64,000 nt of DNA from Halobacteriales archaeon YIM A00010 (GTDB taxonomy: Archaea; Halobacteriota; Halobacteria; Halobacteriales; Haloarculaceae): assembly GCA_025041175.1 (NCBI GenBank), contig JAKCFJ010000002.1, positions 496,001 through 560,000 of the forward strand. The letters run 5' to 3'. This document shows positions 21,433 to 41,235 of the stretch, piece by piece. Position 1 is the stretch's first letter, and each line of letters opens with the position of its first letter. A program made the position numbers and the translations under genes. The notes beneath the pieces are model-generated. The model was not told where the DNA came from. It did no database searches and was given only the letters and a program-made list of their open reading frames with translations.

Positions 21433-22527
21433 TCAGGACGTTGGTGGATCGTCCTCGGCACCGATTCGATCGATCGTGAAGCGCTTGCCAGCGACGTCTT
21501 CGATGTGCGCACCGCGCCCGCCAACCGTGTAAACGGTCTCGTCCGTCGCAAAGCGGATCCGCGCCTTAGCAGCGAGCTTCACGAGCGATGCACTGCCCTC
21601 CTCGGGCTGTGAACCGGTGTAGTCGACAGCAACGAACCGCCCGGCGAGCTGGCACTCTTGGCCGGTTTCGGTGAACATACCGTTGATCCGTCCCATCACC
21701 GTTCCATCTTCTTTGAGGAGTGGCTCGACGGCGCGAATGCATTCGGTGATCTCGACGAAGGAGCATGGTGGCTGGTCGCTACGATCGTCGTACACCGTCT
21801 CGTACACCTCCCAGAGCCGCGTCAGGTAATACCAGTGGAAGACGTACGCTGTGGTGTAATCGTCGATCAAAACGCCGTACTCCTGTGAAAGCCGATCCGG
21901 GGTGGCATAACACGCACGCTCCCGGTCGACCAACACGAGAAACGGACCGGAGAGTTCACGCCGGCGAACTTCGGTGCACACCCCCTCGAATTCGGTCGCG
22001 TCGAAGGGAAGATCTTCGCCAGGGGGCAAGTAGAGCGAGAGGTGAACGTGAACTCCCCGGTCGTAGGCTTCACTCAACAGCGGCTGTAGAGCGGTGAACC
22101 GGCTGGGGGTGGCCGCCAACTGAATGTGATCACGGGCCGTCTCGACAGCGTCACGAGCGTGGTCGAACACGGTCCGTAACCGCTGGACGAGGCTCACGTT
22201 GCTGTCCTCGACTTCTGGCTCCTGATACCGCGTTTCGATCTCGTCGATGGCGGATTCGTACTGCTGGATCGCCGTTTTGAGCCCGGAAAGCGCGTCCTCT
22301 GGGTCGTTTGCCCGAGCATACAAGCGCTCTCGGTCGTAGACCGTGACGTATCCCTGCTCGTCGAGCGCGCGGAGCACGTCGTAAATCCGCGGTTGGGGAA
22401 CGTCGCTCGCTGACGCGATTTCGCTCGCGGCTGCGGACCCGAGTTTGAGAAGCGTTGCGTACGCATCCGCTTGGTATGGAGACAGTCCGGCGTCTTCGAG
22501 AACAGCGATCAATTCGTCGGTCTCCAT
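21433..22527 (-). CDS. TrmB-family transcriptional regulator
   Basis: 364 residues. The N-terminal winged helix-turn-helix (ELIAVLEDAGLSPYQADAYATLL, then VPQPRIYDVLRALDEQGYV) is the TrmB DNA-binding domain. A coiled segment (about 90-115) leads to a ligand-sensing C-terminal region (about 130-364). TrmB proteins sense sugars and control gluconeogenesis or sugar transport in archaea. The ATG at 22527 starts exactly at the wHTH; longer reading upstream is Arg-rich and not protein-like. It may control the convergent MFS gene or the sugar ABC locus at 28-32 kb. Confidence 0.88.
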   Translation of the reverse strand: METDELIAVLEDAGLSPYQADAYATLLKLGSAAASEIASASDVPQPRIYDVLRALDEQGYVTVYDRERLYARANDPEDALSGLKTAIQQYESAIDEIETRYQEPEVEDSNVSLVQRLRTVFDHARDAVETARDHIQLAATPSRFTALQPLLSEAYDRGVHVHLSLYLPPGEDLPFDATEFEGVCTEVRRRELSGPFLVLVDRERACYATPDRLSQEYGVLIDDYTTAYVFHWYYLTRLWEVYETVYDDRSDQPPCSFVEITECIRAVEPLLKEDGTVMGRINGMFTETGQECQLAGRFVAVDYTGSQPEEGSASLVKLAAKARIRFATDETVYTVGGRGAHIEDVAGKRFTIDRIGAEDDPPTS

Positions 22528-22660: not shown

Positions 22661-23386
22661 ATGGATGCCATGGGAGACGTGCCACGCGGTCCGACCACAC
22701 CGAGTTCCGGGGTGGATCAGGATCTGGATCCGTTCGCCACCGCACTTATGCGACTCAAACGCCGGGGGTGTTGTGTGCTCGTGACCGGACAGGTAGACGA
22801 ACAGGTGCGTGCCGCCCAATCCCGCCGGCTGTTCGGGCAGAGCGACGAATCCAGACGGCGCGTGCTGGTACTCACTGAGGGAACACCGAGCCTCACAGCC
22901 CAGTATCTTCCCGATGACATCACGCCAGCGCACTCGTCCGTAACGAAGCTCGATTACACGAACGAGATACGAGACGCTGCAACCGCCGATCCATCACCGC
23001 AGCCGCGACCAACCGCCACCGGTTCGGAGGAATCAGCACCGATGACCGACCTCGGTACGTCGTTGTATGATCCGATCGCTGACGCTGTTCGAACTGACTC
23101 GCCGAGTCCGGGCGAGCTCCGGCTCGGCATCGCGACGCTCGGTGCTCTCATCGACACCGATGGCCTCACAGCAAGCCGGGCGTTCGTCCGTGCCGTCCGA
23201 GGCGACGTGTTGGCCGTCCACGGGATGGGCCACTTCCATTTTCCCGGTGAGCCCGATACCGAAACGTTCGCCGCGCTACGACCCCTGATCGACATTCACA
23301 TCGAACTTCGGAATCTTAATGGGGTTCCCGAACATCGCTGGCATCTACTCGAGGCAGGCCACTCGACCGGCTGGATCCGGCTGTGA
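22661..23386 (+). CDS. DUF7504-like haloarchaeal protein paired with CHAT gene
   Basis: 241 residues with no catalytic motif I can name. The N-terminal part has the alpha/beta pattern CCVLVTGQVDEQVRAAQSRRLFGQ and RRVLVLTEG, like a reduced RecA/P-loop fold without a Walker A. The C-terminal part includes LRLGIATLGALIDTDGL and VHGMGHFHFPGEPD, then IHIELRNLNGVPEHRWHL. It matches what I recall of the haloarchaeal DUF7504 group. It ends in a GTGA overlap with the CHAT gene, so the pair is translationally coupled and probably acts together. Confidence 0.7.
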   Translation: MDAMGDVPRGPTTPSSGVDQDLDPFATALMRLKRRGCCVLVTGQVDEQVRAAQSRRLFGQSDESRRRVLVLTEGTPSLTAQYLPDDITPAHSSVTKLDYTNEIRDAATADPSPQPRPTATGSEESAPMTDLGTSLYDPIADAVRTDSPSPGELRLGIATLGALIDTDGLTASRAFVRAVRGDVLAVHGMGHFHFPGEPDTETFAALRPLIDIHIELRNLNGVPEHRWHLLEAGHSTGWIRL

Positions 23387-25569
23387 CGATGAGCTCAGTA
23401 TCCCTCAAGGAAGCCGTTCGCGTCGACCCACAGCCGGAGGCTCAGCCACCAGCACTCGAGCTGATCGATGACATACAGGGCGTCCGCGCGCAGCTCTCGA
23501 CGGATCGTGGCTGTCGCCCGACACACTGTTCGACCGATCCGTTTCTCTTCCCCGTCGATGTGGCCTACGATCTCTCGCCGCTCGTTTTGCGGACGCACCG
23601 ACTCAATCCGATCATCGTCCGCGACACCGATGGACCCGTCCGTGCCGAAATCACGAACCGTGAGGCTGCGTCCCTCCCGGACGGACAGTACCTCGTTGAC
23701 GTCTGTTCGATGGGATTGAAGGTGTATCTGATCGTTCACGGTGAGCTAGAGATCTCATCCAGCGAGGGACGGCGGACGATCGATTGCTCGGCCGCCGAGA
23801 GCGTACGGCTCGGACTGCGCTCGTTTCACGAGTCCCCGACGGCCACGGTGACGACGACGGATCGACCGCGTGATGTCATGCGCGCGCTTTCGTGTCTCGG
23901 GTCGGCGCTCAAGACCACTTCCTGTGAACGATCGTTTCCGACGCTCCGGGGCCATCCGCCGCTGCTCGAACGCGGCGAGCGCTTTCGCGATCCCTCGGGG
24001 CTCGAGCGGACCGAGGAGACGGCGAGCGTCCGCATCGAGGTGCCGCCGACGCTCGAATCCATCTACCCGGTCGCGCCGCTCGCCTACTACCTGAACGCCG
24101 TGGTTCGGCCGGGCGAGGATTCGCGGATCGTTGCGGACGGTGCCACCGTTCCCCTCGATCGGGGCGACGGACCGGAATCCGGCGCGGCACAGCTGCTCAA
24201 ACGCGTGTTCACGCTGGATTGCATCACCCGAACGGAGGGCGTCTATCCGTTCACGCTCGATGAACGAACGAGGCTCGAAGAACGCCTGACTGACGCGGGC
24301 ATCGAGATCGATTTCGCCGCGCTCTACGAGCAGACGTTAGCCGAGCGGATGGAGGGCTACGTCTCGATCCCGTTCGATCTCCTCGATGGTCTCGTGCCGC
24401 GCTGGCTGCTCACTGCCGACGTGTCTCCAGCGGCGAAACACCTTCCGTCTCTTCCGTTCATCGTGGACAGTCTCGGCACGGTTCGGTGTCTGTCAACGAA
24501 CCGTTCCCAATCGGCAGCTCCAAATCCGCCGGAGATCGAGGCGTTCTATCGGCACGCACAGGCCGAACGCCCAGGGTTTACGCGCAGTGGATCGACCGCG
24601 CCGACGCGGTCGGGACCCTCGACGCGTTCGTCGGAGAGTGTCACTGATCTCGATCGCCCGTCGAACATCCACACTCCCCCTGAAACTGGCAGTATCGCCC
24701 AGCTCTGGCTCGCCGATGGCTATCCGATGCAGGGCGCGAAACCGACGCTACCCGCGTTCGAACGCCGTCTCGATGCAGTCCCGGCCGACACGATCGACGT
24801 CGCCGTCATCAGTAACGACACGGCGATGCAGGCCGAATCGGACGTAGCCGACCTGTACAACCAGCGCGATCGCATCGCTTTTGACGTGACGGTGCACGAG
24901 GAACTGTCCAAACAGGCCCTCTCTGCGGTGTTTGCCGACGACTACGATCTCGTCCACTACGTGGGCCACGTCGATACACGGGGGCTCCAGTGTGGGGATG
25001 GGTGGCTGGATGCCCCCACACTCGACACCGTCAACGCCCGGGCGTTCATGCTGAACGGCTGTCGGTCCTACGAGCAGGGATTGGCGCTCATTAATGGCGG
25101 CGCAATCGGCGGGCTGTGCACGCTCACGAACGTGGGGAACACGCCAGCGACCCGGATCGGTCGCACCGTTGCTCGACTGCTCAACGCGGGGTTTAGCCTC
25201 GCCGGAGCCCTCGAACTCATCAGCGAAGAGTTCGTTACCGGACAGCAGTACATGATCGTGGGCGATCCAACGCTCGCAATCGTCCAGAGCCGCGAAGACA
25301 CCCCGATACTGGCCGAGATTACGCCAGCGCCGGACGACGACACGTTCGTCGTGGACATCCACGGCTATCCATCGAGTCAAACGCCGATCGGAATGCCCTA
25401 CGTTCCCAACGTCGGAGAGAACGAGACGTACTTCCTCAACAGCGGACACCTAACAACGCTCGAGGCCTCACGCACGACAGTGAAGGAATTCCTTCAACAC
25501 GATGACTTTCTCGTTCGGATTAATGGAACGATAACCCGGAGCAAGGACGCTCGTCTCGATTCGATCTAG
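23383..25569 (+). CDS. CHAT-domain (caspase-like) peptidase, haloarchaeal
   Basis: 728 residues. The N-terminal 400 residues are mixed alpha/beta with no named domain; a Ser/Thr-rich linker lies at about 395-430. The C-terminal part (about 430-660) has the CHAT hallmarks: DLVHYVGHVD with the catalytic His at about 529, and AFMLNGCRSYEQG with the catalytic Cys at 560, then GGAIGGLCTLTNV and a helix GFSLAGALEL. It is predicted to be a cytoplasmic cysteine protease activated by partner signals. It starts with GTG overlapping the previous stop (ATG at 23389 is an alternative). A 42-residue hydrophobic peptide gene lies tail-to-tail 4 nt away. Confidence 0.82.
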   Translation: MTMSSVSLKEAVRVDPQPEAQPPALELIDDIQGVRAQLSTDRGCRPTHCSTDPFLFPVDVAYDLSPLVLRTHRLNPIIVRDTDGPVRAEITNREAASLPDGQYLVDVCSMGLKVYLIVHGELEISSSEGRRTIDCSAAESVRLGLRSFHESPTATVTTTDRPRDVMRALSCLGSALKTTSCERSFPTLRGHPPLLERGERFRDPSGLERTEETASVRIEVPPTLESIYPVAPLAYYLNAVVRPGEDSRIVADGATVPLDRGDGPESGAAQLLKRVFTLDCITRTEGVYPFTLDERTRLEERLTDAGIEIDFAALYEQTLAERMEGYVSIPFDLLDGLVPRWLLTADVSPAAKHLPSLPFIVDSLGTVRCLSTNRSQSAAPNPPEIEAFYRHAQAERPGFTRSGSTAPTRSGPSTRSSESVTDLDRPSNIHTPPETGSIAQLWLADGYPMQGAKPTLPAFERRLDAVPADTIDVAVISNDTAMQAESDVADLYNQRDRIAFDVTVHEELSKQALSAVFADDYDLVHYVGHVDTRGLQCGDGWLDAPTLDTVNARAFMLNGCRSYEQGLALINGGAIGGLCTLTNVGNTPATRIGRTVARLLNAGFSLAGALELISEEFVTGQQYMIVGDPTLAIVQSREDTPILAEITPAPDDDTFVVDIHGYPSSQTPIGMPYVPNVGENETYFLNSGHLTTLEASRTTVKEFLQHDDFLVRINGTITRSKDARLDSI

Positions 25570-25573
25570 TAAT

Positions 25574-25702
25574 TCACGGACCGTGAACGGCACCACCAGC
25601 AGCAGCCACTCCGCTCAACGACAGCGCGGTGATACCCGACACGAGAATGCCGGTCAGTTTTGGGTGCTTTGCCATATACGCCGCGATCGTACCATCGAAC
25701 AT
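25574..25702 (-). CDS. 42-residue hydrophobic peptide, DUF7503-like
   Basis: Read directly from the minus strand: MFDGTIAAYMAKHPKLTGIL, then a hydrophobic segment VSGITALSLSGVAAAGGAV and the end HGP. The layout (a short basic N-terminal helix, one membrane or signal-like helix, terminal GP) matches a family of tiny haloarchaeal proteins I know as DUF7503. Its stop lies 4 nt from the stop of the CHAT peptidase gene, and it is convergent with it. The function is unknown; a membrane peptide acted on by the CHAT protease is a hypothesis. Confidence 0.65.
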   Translation of the reverse strand: MFDGTIAAYMAKHPKLTGILVSGITALSLSGVAAAGGAVHGP

Positions 25703-26198
25703 GACATTTCTACACACGGACCATATGACAAAATACTTATCTAATCATTTTTAATAGGAGCGTTCAGATTAGAAGGGGCGGTGTATCCGGCTGCGTGGTC
25801 GAGCAGGGTGATTGTCACCTATCGCTTACGACAGACGACAGCAGATCTCTCCAGGCGTCCCCTCCGCTGTACTGGTGCTCGAAACGCATAGTAACCCAGA
25901 CCCATATGATAGAAATAATTATAGAGGTTATAAATAGATAGTGCTACAGGAAGACTTGGAATAATAATTATAAGAGAATAACTGTTAGTTAGGTATTATA
26001 CAGATAAAGCCACTACTGAACTCCAGAAAATAATACTAGCAATCATATATTTCTCCAATAAATAAAATATTAGATATACAATTATAGGAATTATTATAAT
26101 AATATATTATTGTTATCTGAGTGGTGATAGAGGTATTAATAAAATATGATTATGACATATATCTAAACATCACTCCTTCGTCGATTCAGCCATCTGGA
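25703..26198. other. Very A/T-rich intergenic island, about 490 bp
   Basis: From about 25730 to 26170 the DNA is strongly A/T-rich, full of TAATAT/TTATAA runs, in contrast to the high-G+C surroundings. I see no ORF, repeat array or RNA gene. It holds the promoter of 25574-25702 at its left end and lies downstream of 26199-27278. Recent insertion or a structural/insulator role are possible. Confidence 0.6.
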
Positions 26199-33795: not shown

Positions 33796-36700
33796 CTACT
33801 CGGTTGGAGGTGTCCGGTTCACAACCCGCATCGGGTCGTCTCCGTCCGTGATCGGACACAGCGTGACCGTGAATTCGGTCGTCTCGGGCTGTACCTGATG
33901 CTCCGCTGGCGTGGCAACGGGAGTGCCACCGACGCCGGTCACCGCGTGGTCGAGGTTGAATCCGATCGAATCGCGCGCTTCGAGTTCGTACTGGTAGTCG
34001 GCGGTAGCGAGGTTGGCGTACTGTTCGAGGCTGACGTTCAGCGTGGACTGGCCGTACGCGACCAGACCGCTGCTCCCGTCGGTCAGGGCGGCCCATCGGG
34101 TGTCGGTCTTGTTGCCATTGTCCTGGGGCGGGAGGTAGGGAACGTACTGCTCGTCGACAGCGCCTGAATACCGGTCGATCCGCGCGCCGGTCTTCCGATC
34201 GGGGTAGCTCTCTTCAGGACCACGGCCGTACCACTCGAACCGATCGAGCGAGCGCGGCGTTTCGAGCTGCAAACCGACTTTCGGCAGCCATTCGCCAGCG
34301 TCCTCGACGAGCCGGTCTGTGGGTTCTGCCCGGACCGCTACGCGCACCGCACCAGTGCCGAGCACGCGGTAGCGGTACGTCGTCTCGTATCCGGCTGGCG
34401 GTCCCTCAGTCGCTCCGAGGGCGCGCCCGTGCACTACGATGTCGACGCTGCGTTCGCCCTCCGACGCCTCGATGCTATCGACCTCGTGTCGAATGTCGTC
34501 CAGCCCGAGTTCGTACCAGTTTGTCGCGGGAGAGGAACCCCAGTCCTGGAGCTCGTTCATGATCGGGGCGCGCCAGAAGTTGAACAACGGACCGCGCTCT
34601 ATCAGCTCCGTTCCGTGGTGTTTCATCGAGGCGAACGTACCGAGTTCCTCCTCGAAGGCGTATTCGAACCCCTTGCCCGCGACGAGGACTCCGGTATCGG
34701 ACCGCTCGACGGAGAAGGACGCCGGTCGATCGATCGAGACCTCTTTCGGGCTGGTATCGACCGGGAGCGCGAACTGCTCGAAGGCGATCTCGTGCCCGTC
34801 GTCGCTCCAGTCGGTGCTTTCTGCCACCGAAACCGAGAGATCCAACCAGTACTCCGTTCCCGGATCGTGGTTCGCTGGCAGCTCGAAATCGATCTCCACG
34901 ATTTCAGTCGTACCCGGCGGCGTTTCGAGGTCGAGCGTGCCGTCCCGTACTGTCTCGTCGTTTGCCGAGAGCGACCACGCGACGTCGAACTCGTCCAGGC
35001 TCGTGAACTGGTGGTAGTTCGTGACGTAGATTTCGCCGTTCGTGAGATTGCGCGGCGTCGCTTTCACCGGTTGGTGGCACTGTTTGAGCTGCCACATCTC
35101 GGGCTGGGGCCGGCGATCCGACCAGATCGTCCCGTTGAGGCAGAACGCCCCGGCCGGTCCGTCGCGGTGATAGAACTGAAACGGCTCGCCGTCTGCGGTC
35201 TCGTCGTTCAGGTCCTGGTTCACCCAGTCCCAGATGAACCCGCCTTGGAGGCTCTTGTCCCGGAGCAGGTCGTCGAAATCGTACCACAGAACGGTGTCAT
35301 CGCCCGGTTCCTCCCGGCCGATCCCGTCGTCAGACAGCGCCGTTCCGTGAACGGCGACCCGTTCGACGGTCGCATCGAGGAAGCGCCCGCGGTCGTCGTG
35401 GCCGATGCGCAGGGAACTGTCGGCTGCTTCGACCGGATCGTGCTCGGCGCTGTCGACTTCCTCACCGTCCACGTAGAGAGCGAGCCAATCGTCCGAGCAG
35501 ACGCCCGTCAGCGTGTGCGTCCCCGTATCGTCGCCCGGACCGGCGACCGACTCCTCACCGACAGTGAATTCGAGAGTCCCGTCCGCGGTGACCGCGAGCG
35601 TGGTGTGCTCGCTCGTAATGATCGGCGCGGGCGCGGTAGCGTCGAGATCGCTGAGCGTTACCTCGACGGTGAACGCCGAATTTGAGAGCGACCGCTCGGA
35701 CCGAGCCTCGATGTAGTCGGTGCTGCCGTCGAGCGCGAGTGCGCCGCCGTCCGATCCCGAAACGACCGTGGGCGAGCCGACGAGCACGCCGTCTCCGTCA
35801 CCGATCCGATCGCGCACGCGGTGGACAGGAGGCTGAATGTGGCCGTTCCACATCCCGTCGATCAACCCGAGGCTGTTGCCCATTGCGTGGTTGTACTCGC
35901 CCATGACGACGGAGCGTTCGCCGTTGCCGGGCGACCCGTCCCCGCTCGAGCGGTCCCCGAACCGATCGCTGTCGCTGACGTCCGCACCCTCCCCGAGCGC
36001 CAGGAGCGTCTCGGTGTCGATGTAGCGCGGACCGAGCATATCGCTGTACTCGACGTCCCACCCGCCGTGGTTGGGCTGGTGGTACATGATCCGGTCGGAC
36101 GAGAGGGGTGTGACGCCATCCGCATCGAACGATTCGACCGCTTCGCCCGACAGGCGCGTCGTGTCGCTCGTGTCTTCGGGAAGCGTCGGAGCGTCGCCGA
36201 GCGCCAGCGCGGCCATGTTGAGGTGTTCGGCCGCGGTACCGGCCTCGTTGCCGGTCGACCACGAGAACACCGAGGCGTGGTTTCGATCCCGCAGCACCAT
36301 CCGCCGGAAGCGCTCGACACACTGGTCGTGGTAGGCCGTCGTCTCCGCCAGCACGCCCTCCCACCAGTGCGTCTCGCAGTCGACCTCGTCCTGGACGTAG
36401 ATCCCGTACTCGTCGGCCAGTCGGTAGAATGTCGGGTCGTTCGGGTAGTGGGAGGTCCGCACAGCGTTGAGGTTGAACCGCTTCAGCAGCTCGCAGTCCG
36501 CCCGCATCGTCTCGATCGGCAGCGTCCGTCCCGTGTCGGGGTCGGTTTCGTGGCGGTTGACCCCCCGAACGTTGACAGGCTCACCGTTGACAGTGATGTG
36601 ACCGCCCGGCCCGCGATTTGTCTCGTACGATCTGAATCCAACCTTCTCGAGCAGTACTTCGCTCGGATCGTCGGCGTCGGCCGGGAGCAACTCCAGAACC

Positions 36701-37848
36701 AGCGTGTACAGCTCCGGTTTCTCCGCAGACCACTTCTCGGGATCGTTCACCTCCGTTTCGAGCGTTGCAACACCGCCCCCATCGTCGAGTGATATCGACT
36801 CTTCGCGGGTCACGACTTCCGTCCGCTTATCTGGTTCGTACAGGGTCGCTCGGATCGAACGGTCGCCGCCGTCAGTCCCCGAGTAATCGACGAGTTCGGC
36901 GTCGATCCGGAGGGTTGCGTCCTCGTACGCGTCGTCGAGTTCGGTGCGAACGGCAAAGTCACGGACGTGAACCGGCGGCGTCGAAAACAGGTAGGCGCTC
37001 CGGTAGATGCCGGCGTACTTGTGCATGTCGATGCACTCCATCGCCTCGCCGTCGCTCCAGCGATAGGCCTGGACGGTCAGTTCGTGGTTCCCGCCAGCAC
37101 GGAGGTGGTCAGTGACGTCGAACTCGCCGGGCGTCATCGATCCCTGCTGGAAGCCGACGTACTCGCCGTCGATCCAGACGAAATACGCCTGCTTGACGCC
37201 CTCGAAGTGGAGGAATATCTCCCGGCCGTCCCACTCGGCCGGAACGTCTACTGTCCGGCGGTAAACACCGACCGGATTGGGTCCGTCGTCGCCGACGCCC
37301 GGAACGTCGACCCGCCCCTGATCGTCCGGTTCGAGCTCCCACTCCAGGTCGGAGTCGTACCCGGTCCACGTCGGCTGCCAGTTCGTGTAGACGCGCTTGT
37401 CGTAGCCTTCGGTCTGCCACGGACGGGGGACCGTGATCTCCTCCCAGTCGATCGCATCGAACGAGTCGGGAAGCGCCGAGGGTCGCTCGAAAAACCGGAA
37501 GCGCCACGATCCATCGAGACGTTCGAAGTACGGCGAGCCGTCGAACCGCTCTTCGAGTTCGGTAAACGGGACATCCGATTCCATCGCTTGCGCCGCCGAC
37601 TCGTACGGAACCGTCGTCGGCGTGTGTGTTGGCTCGCGGTGCTCCTGAAAAACGCCGGGATCCTCGAGGTACGCGGGGAGGTTCCGAATCCGTCCCGGCC
37701 CGCTCAGATCCGATTCATTCGCGCTGACGCTCGTACTGCCCAGTACGCCGAGTGTGGCGACCCCGCTGATCGCCAAAAACTCCCGCCGCGACGCCGATAG
37801 TCGTGCTTCGACCGACTCCGTTTCCGTCCGGTTACTGTTGGGACTCAT
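33796..37848 (-). CDS. Tat-exported GH2 beta-galactosidase-like enzyme with inserted LamG-type domain
   Basis: 1350 residues. A Tat signal (residues 21-44, SRREFLAISGVATLG) precedes a LacZ-type layout: sugar-binding jelly roll (about 105-290), Ig-like domain (about 295-410), TIM barrel from about 415, and a C-terminal beta-galactosidase small-chain domain (about 1080-1345). The acid/base is Glu535 (STGNEAG) and the nucleophile Glu651 (MGEYNHAMGNS). Between GMWNGHIQ (about 671) and LQGGFIWDWVNQ (about 867) the barrel is interrupted by about 190 residues with a LamG/concanavalin-like pattern (ALDGSTDYIEA ... LRIGHDDRGRFLDATVERVAV). It is probably an extracellular exo-beta-glycosidase feeding the sugar importer. 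Confidence 0.9.
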   Translation of the reverse strand: MSPNSNRTETESVEARLSASRREFLAISGVATLGVLGSTSVSANESDLSGPGRIRNLPAYLEDPGVFQEHREPTHTPTTVPYESAAQAMESDVPFTELEERFDGSPYFERLDGSWRFRFFERPSALPDSFDAIDWEEITVPRPWQTEGYDKRVYTNWQPTWTGYDSDLEWELEPDDQGRVDVPGVGDDGPNPVGVYRRTVDVPAEWDGREIFLHFEGVKQAYFVWIDGEYVGFQQGSMTPGEFDVTDHLRAGGNHELTVQAYRWSDGEAMECIDMHKYAGIYRSAYLFSTPPVHVRDFAVRTELDDAYEDATLRIDAELVDYSGTDGGDRSIRATLYEPDKRTEVVTREESISLDDGGGVATLETEVNDPEKWSAEKPELYTLVLELLPADADDPSEVLLEKVGFRSYETNRGPGGHITVNGEPVNVRGVNRHETDPDTGRTLPIETMRADCELLKRFNLNAVRTSHYPNDPTFYRLADEYGIYVQDEVDCETHWWEGVLAETTAYHDQCVERFRRMVLRDRNHASVFSWSTGNEAGTAAEHLNMAALALGDAPTLPEDTSDTTRLSGEAVESFDADGVTPLSSDRIMYHQPNHGGWDVEYSDMLGPRYIDTETLLALGEGADVSDSDRFGDRSSGDGSPGNGERSVVMGEYNHAMGNSLGLIDGMWNGHIQPPVHRVRDRIGDGDGVLVGSPTVVSGSDGGALALDGSTDYIEARSERSLSNSAFTVEVTLSDLDATAPAPIITSEHTTLAVTADGTLEFTVGEESVAGPGDDTGTHTLTGVCSDDWLALYVDGEEVDSAEHDPVEAADSSLRIGHDDRGRFLDATVERVAVHGTALSDDGIGREEPGDDTVLWYDFDDLLRDKSLQGGFIWDWVNQDLNDETADGEPFQFYHRDGPAGAFCLNGTIWSDRRPQPEMWQLKQCHQPVKATPRNLTNGEIYVTNYHQFTSLDEFDVAWSLSANDETVRDGTLDLETPPGTTEIVEIDFELPANHDPGTEYWLDLSVSVAESTDWSDDGHEIAFEQFALPVDTSPKEVSIDRPASFSVERSDTGVLVAGKGFEYAFEEELGTFASMKHHGTELIERGPLFNFWRAPIMNELQDWGSSPATNWYELGLDDIRHEVDSIEASEGERSVDIVVHGRALGATEGPPAGYETTYRYRVLGTGAVRVAVRAEPTDRLVEDAGEWLPKVGLQLETPRSLDRFEWYGRGPEESYPDRKTGARIDRYSGAVDEQYVPYLPPQDNGNKTDTRWAALTDGSSGLVAYGQSTLNVSLEQYANLATADYQYELEARDSIGFNLDHAVTGVGGTPVATPAEHQVQPETTEFTVTLCPITDGDDPMRVVNRTPPTE

Positions 37849-38003
37849 GAGTATCTGTGGAAGACGGTATCGAGCGGGTGGTCCGTTCGTGTCTTCCCAC
37901 TGTGAGCGCTACGAACACCAGTAAGAATATAAATATTAGGACGTACGAGATTTACATAATTATTTTTATTTATAAATGCTTCCTCTCTGGTGGGAGCGTT
38001 CGA
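37849..38003. promoter_or_regulatory. Spacer between GH3 and GH2 genes with A/T-rich promoter elements
   Basis: 155 bp. On the minus strand an ATATTTATATTC box lies about 77-88 nt before the GH2 start, and a second A/T-rich block lies just below the GH3 stop (about 37950-37980). The GH2 gene may therefore have its own promoter with a short leader in addition to read-through from GH3. Confidence 0.4.
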
Positions 38004-40943
38004 TCATTCGAGCCGGATCGTGTTCACGCGGACAGTACCACTGCGGGCCAGGACGTAGAGATCCTGTTTGTGTCCGGTCGCTCGATCCAACGGCATCGCG
38101 TGTTCCGTGTACTCGTACACGCCACCGGTCGAGGGCACGTCACCCCGGCCGAGTAGCCGACCGGAGGGGGAGCCACGGCGGAGTTCGATCGTCGCCGCGC
38201 CGCTCGGTGCTCGGGCGACCGAGACGATCGCTTCAGTTGGCTTGCTTCGGAGGTCGACGTCAGCGAACGACACCCACGACCCGTCGGACATGCCGACGAC
38301 CGTTCCCTCGGCCCGCGACCGGTCGAGCAGCTCGATCTCCGACCACGACCAGTCGTCGGCGTCGACCGCCCGCGTCTCCTCGGATAGATCGCGCGGTGGG
38401 ATCCGCTCGCCGTCGACCCGCAGCGCTCCGCGCAGCCGGATGTCGTCGGATGCGGAGCCGACGAACACCGAGTGGGTCGCGCGTTCGACGGTCCGTTTTC
38501 GCCGTGTCACGTCCCAGAACGAGAACGCTTCGTGATCGATGGAGCGTTCGATGGTCGTGCGCTCGCCGGGAGCGAGATGAATCCGCTCGAATCCGCGGAG
38601 AATGCGGTCCGGTTGCTGGGCTTGCGAGCGGCGCTGCTCGGTGTAGATCTGGACGACTTCGTCGGCGGCCATCGATCCGGTGTTGGTCACACGAACGCTG
38701 ACGGTCGCACTATCCCCCGATTCGAGCGGCTTGCTCGGGGAGACGCGCAGGTCGTCGTATTCGAAGCTGCTGTAGGAGAGCCCGTGACCGAACGCGTACA
38801 GCGGATCCGCCTGTCCGTAGCGGTACGTCATCCCCGTTTCGGCGATGTTGTATTCCTTTATGTCCGGCAGTTGATCGACCGAGCGCGGCCAGGTCTGGGG
38901 TACTCGGCCGCCGGGGGAGACGTCGCCGACCAACACGTCGGCCAACGCGCGACCGGTTTCCTGGCCAGCGTGACTCGTCCACAGGATCGAGGGGACCCGC
39001 TTCTCCGCCTCGACGCGAACGGGGTAGCTGCTCTCTACGATCAGCACGGTCCGCGACTGGGCGTCGGCGACGCGTTCGACGAGTTCCCGTTGAGACGGCG
39101 CAATGGCGAGATCTTCGCGGTCCCGGGTTTCACGGCCCCCCATCAGCGGATGCGTGCCGACCACCACGACGGCGACGTCGGCGTTGGTCGCGGCTTCGAC
39201 CGCCGCCTCGTGGCCAGCGTGGCGCACGTCGACGGTGAATAGGGCAGCGTCGGACTGCTGTTCGGCGTCGGCGTGAAGCGACCCGTCCGTGATCGTTACG
39301 TACCGGTCGCTGCTCGGGTGGTACAGCGCGACACTGTCGTCGACGGAGACGAACTCGAACGCCTCCCCGACCACTTCCCAGCCCGCGGGCCGTTCCGCGG
39401 CGTTGACGAGCTGTTCACCGTCGACGGTCACGTAGCGACCGTTCGCCGTTGCCCGAAGCGTCCGGGCGGTTTCCGTCCACTGGATGGTCTCGAACAGCTG
39501 TACGCTGGGGGCGTCGGTATCGCTCAGCCCGAGGACGCCACCACCCTTTCCGACGCCAGCAGTGACGTACTCGTCCGAGGAACGTTCCCGAAGCGCGATC
39601 CGATCGGCGCCGACAGCGGTGTGAACCCGGTCGGCTCCGAGCCGATCGCGTACACCGTCTTCGGGGGTGCTGCGATACGGCATCGTCCCGCTGTACCAGT
39701 CCTCGAACACCCGATCGGAGAGTGGTCCGAGAAGGGCGACGCTGTCGTCCTCCGAGAGCGGGAGCACGCCGGATTCGTTTTTGAGGAGAACGGTCTGCTC
39801 GCGCGCCGCCTCGCGGGCGAGCTCCCGGTGAGCAGGACGCCCGATGACGTCGCCAGTGATGTCTGCGTAGGGATCCTCCGAGGGGGGCAGCTCCCCGAGT
39901 AGCGACCGGACCGACAGAACGTGACCGACCGCCCTGTCGAGATCGTTCTCGCTCAGACGCCCGTTGTCGAGCGCCCCGAGTATTGCGTCGGTCGTCACCG
40001 AACTGTCGGATCCGTGCTCGGTGAAGCTGTCTAATCCCGCGATCAGTGCGGCGGCGCGGGCCGTTTCCTCCGATTCGAAGTAGTCCTGGGCCTCGGTCAG
40101 ATTCACTGGTGCCCACGCGTCGCTGACGTTCAGCACCGCTCGGTCGGGTGCCCAGTCCCGGACGAATCGGTTCAACAACGGCGACACGGTCATCGGCCGT
40201 CCGTTGACGAGGTTGTAGGACGCCATCACTCCGACCGCGTTCCCCGCCTCGATCGGTGGACGGAAGAACGGGAGGTAGTAGTCGTGCAACAGCCTGGGCG
40301 GTATCTCGGCGTTCGTCGTCGTTCTGTCCGTCTCGTTGTTGTACCCGATGAAGTGTTTGAGTATCGGCGCGGTTTTGAGATGCTCCGGATCGTCGCCTGT
40401 GAGACCGTCCGTGTACGCCGTCGCGATCGCACCGCTCAACAGCGGGTCTTCGGCGTATCCTTCCTCGTTTCGCCCCCACCGAGGATCGCGGAGCGGATCG
40501 ACCGTCGGAGACCAGACGTTGAGACCGACCCCACTCGCGTTGTGTTTTCCTCGGACCTCATCGCCCACGGCACTGCCGACGCGCTCGATCAGTTCCGGAT
40601 CCCACGTGCTCCCGAGACCGATGGCCTGGGGAAAGACGGTCGCTTCGCCCGACCACGCAACGCCGTGTAGCGCCTCCGTCCCGGTCCGGAACGAATCGAG
40701 ATCGACGCTTGGAATCGGCGGCTGGTACTGGTGCAGTAGCGATACCTTCTCCTCGGTGGTGAGGCGACCGACCAAATCCTCAACGCGCTCGTCGATCGAT
40801 TGCTCCGAGTCGTGTAACGGTTGCTCTTCCCCACTATTGTCTCCGGTCCTCGCGCTCACGGAGTTGCCGGTTAGCGCAAGTCCAGCACCTACGATTGCAA
40901 GTACGTTTCGGCGGGTCGTATCTACCATCTTTCGGAACTCCAT
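38004..40943 (-). CDS. Tat-exported GH3 beta-glucosidase/xylosidase with fascin-like insert and CBM6
   Basis: About 979 residues from the ATG at 40943. A Tat signal (TTRRNVLAIVG) is followed by the GH3 N-terminal barrel, with nucleophile Asp275 in VLNVSDAW and KHFIGYNNETDR as substrate-binding Lys-His. Next is the GH3 C-terminal alpha/beta domain, into which a beta-trefoil/fascin-like segment (about 450-580: RATANGRYVTVDG, HPSSDRYVTITDG) is inserted. A fibronectin III-like domain (about 700-790) and a C-terminal CBM6-like domain (about 850-979) follow. It is an exo-beta-glycosidase outside the cell. NagZ motifs are absent. A TATA box 22-32 nt upstream supports this start. Confidence 0.88.
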   Translation of the reverse strand: MEFRKMVDTTRRNVLAIVGAGLALTGNSVSARTGDNSGEEQPLHDSEQSIDERVEDLVGRLTTEEKVSLLHQYQPPIPSVDLDSFRTGTEALHGVAWSGEATVFPQAIGLGSTWDPELIERVGSAVGDEVRGKHNASGVGLNVWSPTVDPLRDPRWGRNEEGYAEDPLLSGAIATAYTDGLTGDDPEHLKTAPILKHFIGYNNETDRTTTNAEIPPRLLHDYYLPFFRPPIEAGNAVGVMASYNLVNGRPMTVSPLLNRFVRDWAPDRAVLNVSDAWAPVNLTEAQDYFESEETARAAALIAGLDSFTEHGSDSSVTTDAILGALDNGRLSENDLDRAVGHVLSVRSLLGELPPSEDPYADITGDVIGRPAHRELAREAAREQTVLLKNESGVLPLSEDDSVALLGPLSDRVFEDWYSGTMPYRSTPEDGVRDRLGADRVHTAVGADRIALRERSSDEYVTAGVGKGGGVLGLSDTDAPSVQLFETIQWTETARTLRATANGRYVTVDGEQLVNAAERPAGWEVVGEAFEFVSVDDSVALYHPSSDRYVTITDGSLHADAEQQSDAALFTVDVRHAGHEAAVEAATNADVAVVVVGTHPLMGGRETRDREDLAIAPSQRELVERVADAQSRTVLIVESSYPVRVEAEKRVPSILWTSHAGQETGRALADVLVGDVSPGGRVPQTWPRSVDQLPDIKEYNIAETGMTYRYGQADPLYAFGHGLSYSSFEYDDLRVSPSKPLESGDSATVSVRVTNTGSMAADEVVQIYTEQRRSQAQQPDRILRGFERIHLAPGERTTIERSIDHEAFSFWDVTRRKRTVERATHSVFVGSASDDIRLRGALRVDGERIPPRDLSEETRAVDADDWSWSEIELLDRSRAEGTVVGMSDGSWVSFADVDLRSKPTEAIVSVARAPSGAATIELRRGSPSGRLLGRGDVPSTGGVYEYTEHAMPLDRATGHKQDLYVLARSGTVRVNTIRLE

Positions 40944-40963
40944 CATCAAACTGGCAAAGGGGG

Positions 40964-40976
40964 GATAAAAAGATGT
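40964..40976 (-). promoter_or_regulatory. TATA-like box of the GH3 gene
   Basis: The minus strand reads CTTTTTATCC, 22-32 nt upstream of ATG codons at 40943 and 40946. This decides for these starts over the longer frame beginning at 41066. Confidence 0.45.
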
Positions 40977-41235
40977 CGCAGACAGTGACAGAAAATTCAC
41001 GGGATGATCCGGTGAGAGACACGAACGAGCGATCGTGAAACCATTGACTGGCTCTTGGGCTCCCAACCAGCTTTCGTTGGTACGTGCGGCGGCGGATATC
41101 GAACACAGGGAGACGCGCCATCATTTCACAACTCGCGCGACGGTTCCCACTCCAAGTGGATGCAGTGACCGGAGCAGGGACTGGGAACCGACGGACAAGC
41201 GGAACGTTTTAGAACGGTTCGTGCGATGAGCCACC

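Follow-up and report, generated by a model that had tools for sequence, protein, structure and literature searches.

In bacteria, CHAT proteases switch on membrane killers or cut partners that are linked to them, and securin binds the groove of separase. In Archaea, Haloferax volcanii was reported to possess high zVAD-sensitive caspase-like activity, and the authors noted that archaea are without gene homologues (PMC3615174). The haloarchaeal CHAT family analyzed here is a candidate for the gene source of this activity. In the literature that we searched, neither DUF7503 nor DUF7504 was found, nor was any pairing of "CHAT domain" with haloarchaea or with Haloferax volcanii. We report here that most Halobacteria encode a predicted caspase-like protease together with a dedicated partner peptide, an association undescribed in the same literature.

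The locus and its paralogous copies

The window is a stretch of 64,000 nucleotides from Halobacteriales archaeon YIM A00010, whose genome measures 5.97 Mb and has its nearest relatives in the genus Halocatena. The three ORFs of interest, namely, those of a DUF7504 protein, a CHAT-like protease, and a DUF7503 peptide, were found at the coordinates at which the first-pass annotation had placed them. The features of the locus are the following.

21433..22527, minus strand: TrmB-family regulator (PF11495, 147.7 bits), divergent from DUF7504
22661..23386, plus strand: DUF7504 protein (PF24336, 147.6 bits, cut-off 27), with a predicted RecA/KaiC fold without Walker A
23383..25569, plus strand: CHAT-like cysteine protease of 728 aa, GTG start, fold match of the AF2 model to proteases
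24697..25287, plus strand: predicted CHAT catalytic domain (approximately residues 439-635), the part of the model that aligns with clan CD proteases
24967..24969, plus strand: codon CAC of the catalytic His529, invariant in 91/91 relatives
25060..25062, plus strand: codon TGT of the catalytic Cys560, invariant in 91/91 relatives
25574..25702, minus strand: DUF7503 peptide of 42 aa, with HPKLT motif, hydrophobic helix, and Gly-Pro tail (PF24335, 26.7 bits)
25577..25603, minus strand: C-terminal tail AAGGAVHGP of DUF7503, retained or multiplied in relatives
25727..25758, minus strand: promoter-like element of the DUF7503 gene, TATTAAAAATGATTAGATAAGTATTTTGTCA, found in nearly the same form ahead of the peptide gene in relatives

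The DUF7503 ORF is convergent with the CHAT ORF, with 4 nt between it and the stop codon of the latter. For DUF7504, the paralogues suggest Met4 at position 22670 as an alternative to the start at 22661. The GTGA overlap of the DUF7504 and CHAT genes, read initially as translational coupling, depends on the CHAT start: with the GTG at 23383 the two genes overlap, and with the in-frame ATG at 23389 a 2-nt gap would separate them. We consider a true overlap probable, though not assured. The TrmB-family protein is a possible local regulator of the cassette, and Halocatena pleomorpha (L016) has a TrmB gene at the equivalent position. Farther along the window, positions 33799-41066 encode two large glycoside hydrolases, one of the GH2 beta-galactosidase type that carries a laminin-G domain and one of GH3 that carries CBM6, next to genes of a sugar ABC transporter.

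Five further loci of the same genome contain all three genes (L009 to L013, of which L013 has diverged), another holds a lone CHAT gene (L014), and yet another holds DUF7504 and a truncated CHAT gene (L015). The flanks of these paralogous cassettes share little, with few weak matches of ~29-43% between pairs of loci once cassette genes and shadow ORFs were set aside. In L012, the CHAT and peptide genes are 5.4 kb apart, and the segment between them (L012:8417-13846) includes an ORF of 614 aa, the HELGH motif of which is typical of M3 oligopeptidases. Additional DUF7504 genes of this genome, members of a large haloarchaeal family, are distant from any CHAT gene (L096, L097, and L098).

The Pfam CHAT profile gave no above-threshold match on the window protein and matched 15 of 53 relatives weakly (best E value, 0.0011), and a PDB sequence search with the protein returned no match. 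Its AF2 model (pLDDT 88, pTM 0.88) matched best the fold of gingipain RgpB (Z 20.4 over 242 residues), followed by SAVED-CHAT (Z 17.8, rmsd 2.3 over 168 residues), separase (Z 17.4), and TPR-CHAT (Z 14.2), and these structural matches span approximately residues 340 to 635. In the alignment, H525, H529, N558, and C560 are invariant in all 91 CHAT relatives, within HxxGH and (N/A)C.S contexts; the His-Cys pair described initially as intact is thus shared by all of these relatives. Although the Pfam CHAT match remains below threshold, the predicted fold confirms the ORF as a CHAT/clan CD protease with a caspase-like fold and an intact His-Cys dyad.

The protein labeled initially as DUF7504-like is a true DUF7504 member according to its PF24336 score. 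Its AF2 model (pLDDT 87) superimposes on KaiC (Z 16.8, rmsd 2.9, 175 aligned residues), and the Walker A motif GxxxxGK[ST] was found in none of 52 DUF7504 sequences. The family is thus predicted to share the RecA/KaiC fold but, since Walker A is missing, is not filed here as a KaiC ATPase. With respect to 92 CHAT genes, DUF7504 was located (i) directly upstream in 49 cases, (ii) downstream beyond the peptide in 15 cases, and (iii) at neither position in 28 cases. It was present in all 59 genomes sampled, with 1 to 15 copies each, including five without CHAT (G001, G007, G014, G017, and G021). DUF7504 is hence an optional neighbor of the CHAT-peptide pair that comes from a large family, and the fixed three-part unit proposed in the first-pass annotation did not hold. 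HalX response regulators were found near 14 loci, in several of them near DUF7504, and they are also located upstream of the Haloplanus peptide gene; this proximity suggests a two-component control of the cassette. A relay centered on DUF7504, in which CHAT cleaves DUF7504 and the peptide is a mere anchor, would fit the 49 upstream genes and the nearby HalX regulators. We consider it highly improbable, given the 28 CHAT genes that have no DUF7504 nearby and the presence of DUF7504 in every sampled genome, the five CHAT-less ones included.

The CHAT-peptide pair across Halobacteria

CHAT was detected in 179 and DUF7503 in 164 of 194 sampled Halobacteria genomes, and the 15 genomes without CHAT were all missing among those positive for DUF7503. 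The CHAT distribution is near-universal, and the gene is mostly present as a single copy. The protease and the small peptide had been read as a functional pair from the window locus, and this reading passed the adjacency check: a convergent partner was found at the 3' end of 143 of 152 distinct CHAT genes, a set that leans to close relatives since it was composed of the best 80 of 378 genome-scan matches plus the loci from the listed distribution rows. The spacing between CHAT and its partner is at most 50 nt in 118 of the 143 pairs, and in 33 the two genes overlap by 4 nt. Nine of the 152 CHAT genes have no adjacent partner. Among the matches listed, some CHAT genes appeared without a peptide, mostly because of the listing cut-off: of 20 such genes whose DNA was inspected, 16 had the peptide. 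Haladaptatus litoreus (L080) has two tandem CHAT genes and no peptide, and another sampled genome (L105) also carries CHAT without the peptide.

The CHAT and peptide distances are correlated with a Mantel r of 0.51, which exceeds the values of all 5,000 within-genome paralogue shuffles of the peptides (mean 0.38, sd 0.022). We read this correlation as co-inheritance, although physical linkage alone could produce the same r. That CHAT and DUF7503 form a conserved convergent pair is, in our judgment, nearly certain.

We also inspected the loci for signs of defense and mobility. PADLOC gave no match for the DUF7504 protein, the CHAT protein, or the peptide of the window, and none among 53 CHAT relatives. 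Its matches in the neighborhood are generic (an ABC ATPase, a beta-galactosidase, and PHP), and the neighborhood consists of sugar-metabolism genes; the locus was accordingly rejected as a defense island. No relatives were found on IMG/VR viral contigs, and CHAT occurs on 25 haloarchaeal plasmids, none of which is predicted to be mobilizable, so that a viral or mobile origin was rejected as well. The role in defense offered by the first-pass annotation is weak because the gene is near-universal, the unit has no PADLOC match, its neighbors serve sugar metabolism, and no copies were found in the viral contigs searched.

Tail and helix of the DUF7503 peptide

The 42-aa ORF of the window scores 26.7 bits with the DUF7503 profile, against a cut-off of 27, and the alignment together with its position places it in this family. 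The pooled dN/dS of the peptide gene is ~0.13 over 17 close pairs of relatives, and the promoter-like element recurs almost unchanged ahead of the peptide gene in L009, L010, L011, and L016, with a similar version in L017. Given this dN/dS value and the retention of the element among the Halocatena copies, the ORF is a real gene and not a chance ORF, and the sequence comparison indicates that it is under purifying selection.

Three parts can be told apart in DUF7503 peptides: the [HN]P[RK] motif, the hydrophobic helix, and the tail, for which Gly-Pro is the typical end. The helix, with conserved Gln and small residues, is marginally hydrophobic in most members (the 19-aa Kyte-Doolittle value of the window peptide is 1.74). 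The size of the partners ranges from 28 to 200 aa. A Gly-Pro terminus is found in 128 of 143 partners and is missing in 15, corresponding to ~7 changes on the CHAT tree; no CHAT alignment column tracked this loss convincingly. Several partners end just before the Gly-Pro, for example, with ...NGGTIS (L053, L055, L069, L075, L085, L093, L112-L114, L118, L172, and L173). Divergent partners have cysteine-containing tails, mostly with CxxC, followed by GP, such as CAKCGVRGP and CIQCGTAGP (L070, L107, L108, L063, and the second CHAT of L074).

In Haloplanus, two forms occupy the partner slot. Three loci (L191-L193) have a canonical DUF7503, e.g., MSESDSGTVATYLKNNPRMMGVLFTMLLLLSQAGTVAAGNSGAISGP, and at least eight others have a helix-less protein of tandem tails, e.g., MSESDSGTVAASREESGTVADGNGGGISGPYNADGNGGGISGP... 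in L120. Both forms start with MSESDSGTVA. The core unit of the tandem tails is GNxxG[IV]SGP, and the exact units counted in eight repeat proteins amount to 2, 4, 5, 7, 7, 10, 13, and 14. In eight Haloplanus genomes, the exact pattern was not found beyond the partner locus; in three of these genomes there are variant units that it does not capture. Within each repeat protein the nonapeptide core is identical and its codons differ: summed over the eight proteins, within-protein pairwise comparisons of the core units gave 852 synonymous and 0 nonsynonymous codon differences, counts that are pairwise and thus represent nonindependent events. Since the codons differ while the residues are identical, the pattern reflects selection on the tail peptide rather than recent copying. 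The units are joined by [YFMS][TN]AD, canonical tails are preceded by AAA, and across both sets we found no cleavage site conserved on both sides.

The repeat forms occur in two places on the CHAT tree. L073, with 2 units, groups with the canonical L192 (support 0.996), at a distance from the remaining repeat forms; the change from helix to repeat thus arose twice or was exchanged. The CHAT proteins of species with and without the helix are 77-87% identical, and the helix is missing in most Haloplanus sampled. The partner of Halocatena marina (L017) lacks the helix independently; this peptide, which at 28 aa, MMFDTITTTTAKHPELTCDTDGHTIGGP, is the shortest of the range, keeps HPELT and GHTIGGP. 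It may be decaying, but it is in frame and the sibling promoter element is intact. Because the helix can vanish while the tail stays and multiplies, the selected element of DUF7503 is the C-terminal tail and not the hydrophobic helix.

The original proposal that the protease acts on the membrane peptide calls for revision: the pairing stands, but the peptide can do without its helix, and it is the Gly-Pro tail that selection preserves. In its gasdermin-like form, CHAT would act on the peptide and the freed helix would permeabilize the membrane or signal in death or defense. Such an effector would suit the marginally hydrophobic helix of most DUF7503 peptides, with its conserved Gln and small residues, and the analogy with bacterial CHAT proteases that activate membrane killers or cut linked partners. 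It is nevertheless very unlikely in view of (i) the absence of the helix from most Haloplanus sampled and from L017, in which tail and CHAT are kept, (ii) the near-universal, mostly single-copy distribution, and (iii) the lack of PADLOC matches and of viral copies in the searches described above. A simple pore-forming effector in particular is disfavored by the loss of the helix in relatives.

The main rival to cleavage at the tail is a securin-like regulator, the tail of which would occupy the active-site groove of CHAT, serving as inhibitor, chaperone, or pseudosubstrate, and would not be released as a signal; the real substrates would be other proteins, and tandem tails would titrate more protease. 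Several observations are in line with this alternative: separase is among the closest folds of the CHAT model, each protease has one co-inherited partner, the tail persists where the helix has been lost, and a separate promoter of the peptide gene, as the promoter-like element suggests, would suit a constitutive inhibitor. However, an inhibitor has no need of 2 to 14 identical copies joined by a linker that varies at one residue, and it would be expected to possess a conserved protease-resistant feature, whereas Gly-Pro alone is conserved. We regard the securin-like regulator as unlikely.

Proposed mechanism and comparison with known systems

Our preferred reading is that DUF7503 is a dedicated CHAT substrate, the tail of which is recognized and released as a short signal peptide; as a whole, we give this explanation an even chance. 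Being the selected and multiplied element, the tail is the best candidate for recognition by CHAT. From the sequence comparisons, the peptide is rather probably a direct CHAT substrate, and the released tail may act as a signal, a step on which we are more tentative. CHAT would be triggered, possibly via DUF7504 and HalX or TrmB signaling, and the activated protease would cut beside the tail, so that a short peptide of ~9 to 13 residues would be freed as the signal; the helix would normally retain the precursor within the membrane or the protease. In Haloplanus, a soluble multicopy precursor would replace the helix-anchored form, its tandem units and short linkers constituting a multiunit substrate from which CHAT or another peptidase would free short peptides. 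Such a substrate is the easiest explanation of the tandem units, with multivalent binding or inhibition as the main alternative. The Haloplanus partners combine the short unit, purifying selection, and tandem multiplication expected of a peptide-signal precursor. Several observations speak against this mechanism: the charges of the canonical tail predict that it faces outside, whereas an obvious signal peptide is missing from CHAT, and neither an exporter nor a receptor was identified. The lack of a cleavage site conserved on both sides, the 15 partners without terminal GP, the nine CHAT genes without an adjacent partner, and the failure to find a second protein with the exact unit in the eight Haloplanus genomes weigh in the same direction. 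Possible but rather unlikely is a class-wide archaeal system of peptide signaling, in which a caspase-fold protease frees a short tail, typically with a Gly-Pro end, from a tiny precursor that is either membrane-bound or soluble, and in which the multicopy precursors of one genus had more than one origin.

Processing of the peptide, if it takes place, could provide archaea with a peptide signal of known protease, and the Haloplanus repeat form offers a ready-made assay substrate. One experimentally studied haloarchaeal quorum signal, that of H. volcanii, is described as a small molecule; as this signal is proteinase K resistant, we claim no link between it and the CHAT-peptide pair (PMC12240190).

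CHAT proteases with linked substrates are already known as a kind, whereas we found no description, in the literature searched, of a partner that is tiny, occurs throughout an archaeal class, and has a selectable tail that multiplies. Four described systems can be compared with the pair. (i) Csx29 (TPR-CHAT)/Csx30 and SAVED-CHAT of type III CRISPR systems share with it the predicted CHAT fold (Z values of 14.2 for TPR-CHAT and 17.8 for SAVED-CHAT), the His-Cys dyad, and a partner encoded beside the protease, but we found neither a SAVED domain match nor a CRISPR effector beside the window locus, and the haloarchaeal partner, with 28 to 200 aa, is not a large protein like that of Csx29. (ii) Separase and securin resemble it in the related caspase-like fold (Z 17.4) and in the dedicated small partner, and differ in that the haloarchaeal pair has no cohesin context, its partner has no similarity to securin, and the tail is tandemly repeated in one genus. 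(iii) Bacterial gasdermins with their CHAT-type proteases likewise consist of a protease adjoining a membrane-associated partner, whereas the haloarchaeal partner is tiny (42 aa for the DUF7503 of the window), has a dispensable helix, and is no gasdermin homologue. (iv) Precursors of the yeast alpha-factor type have in common with the Haloplanus proteins the identical short tandem units and the strong purifying selection, whereas the haloarchaeal repeat form is made without a signal sequence and most species carry a single tail on a helix.
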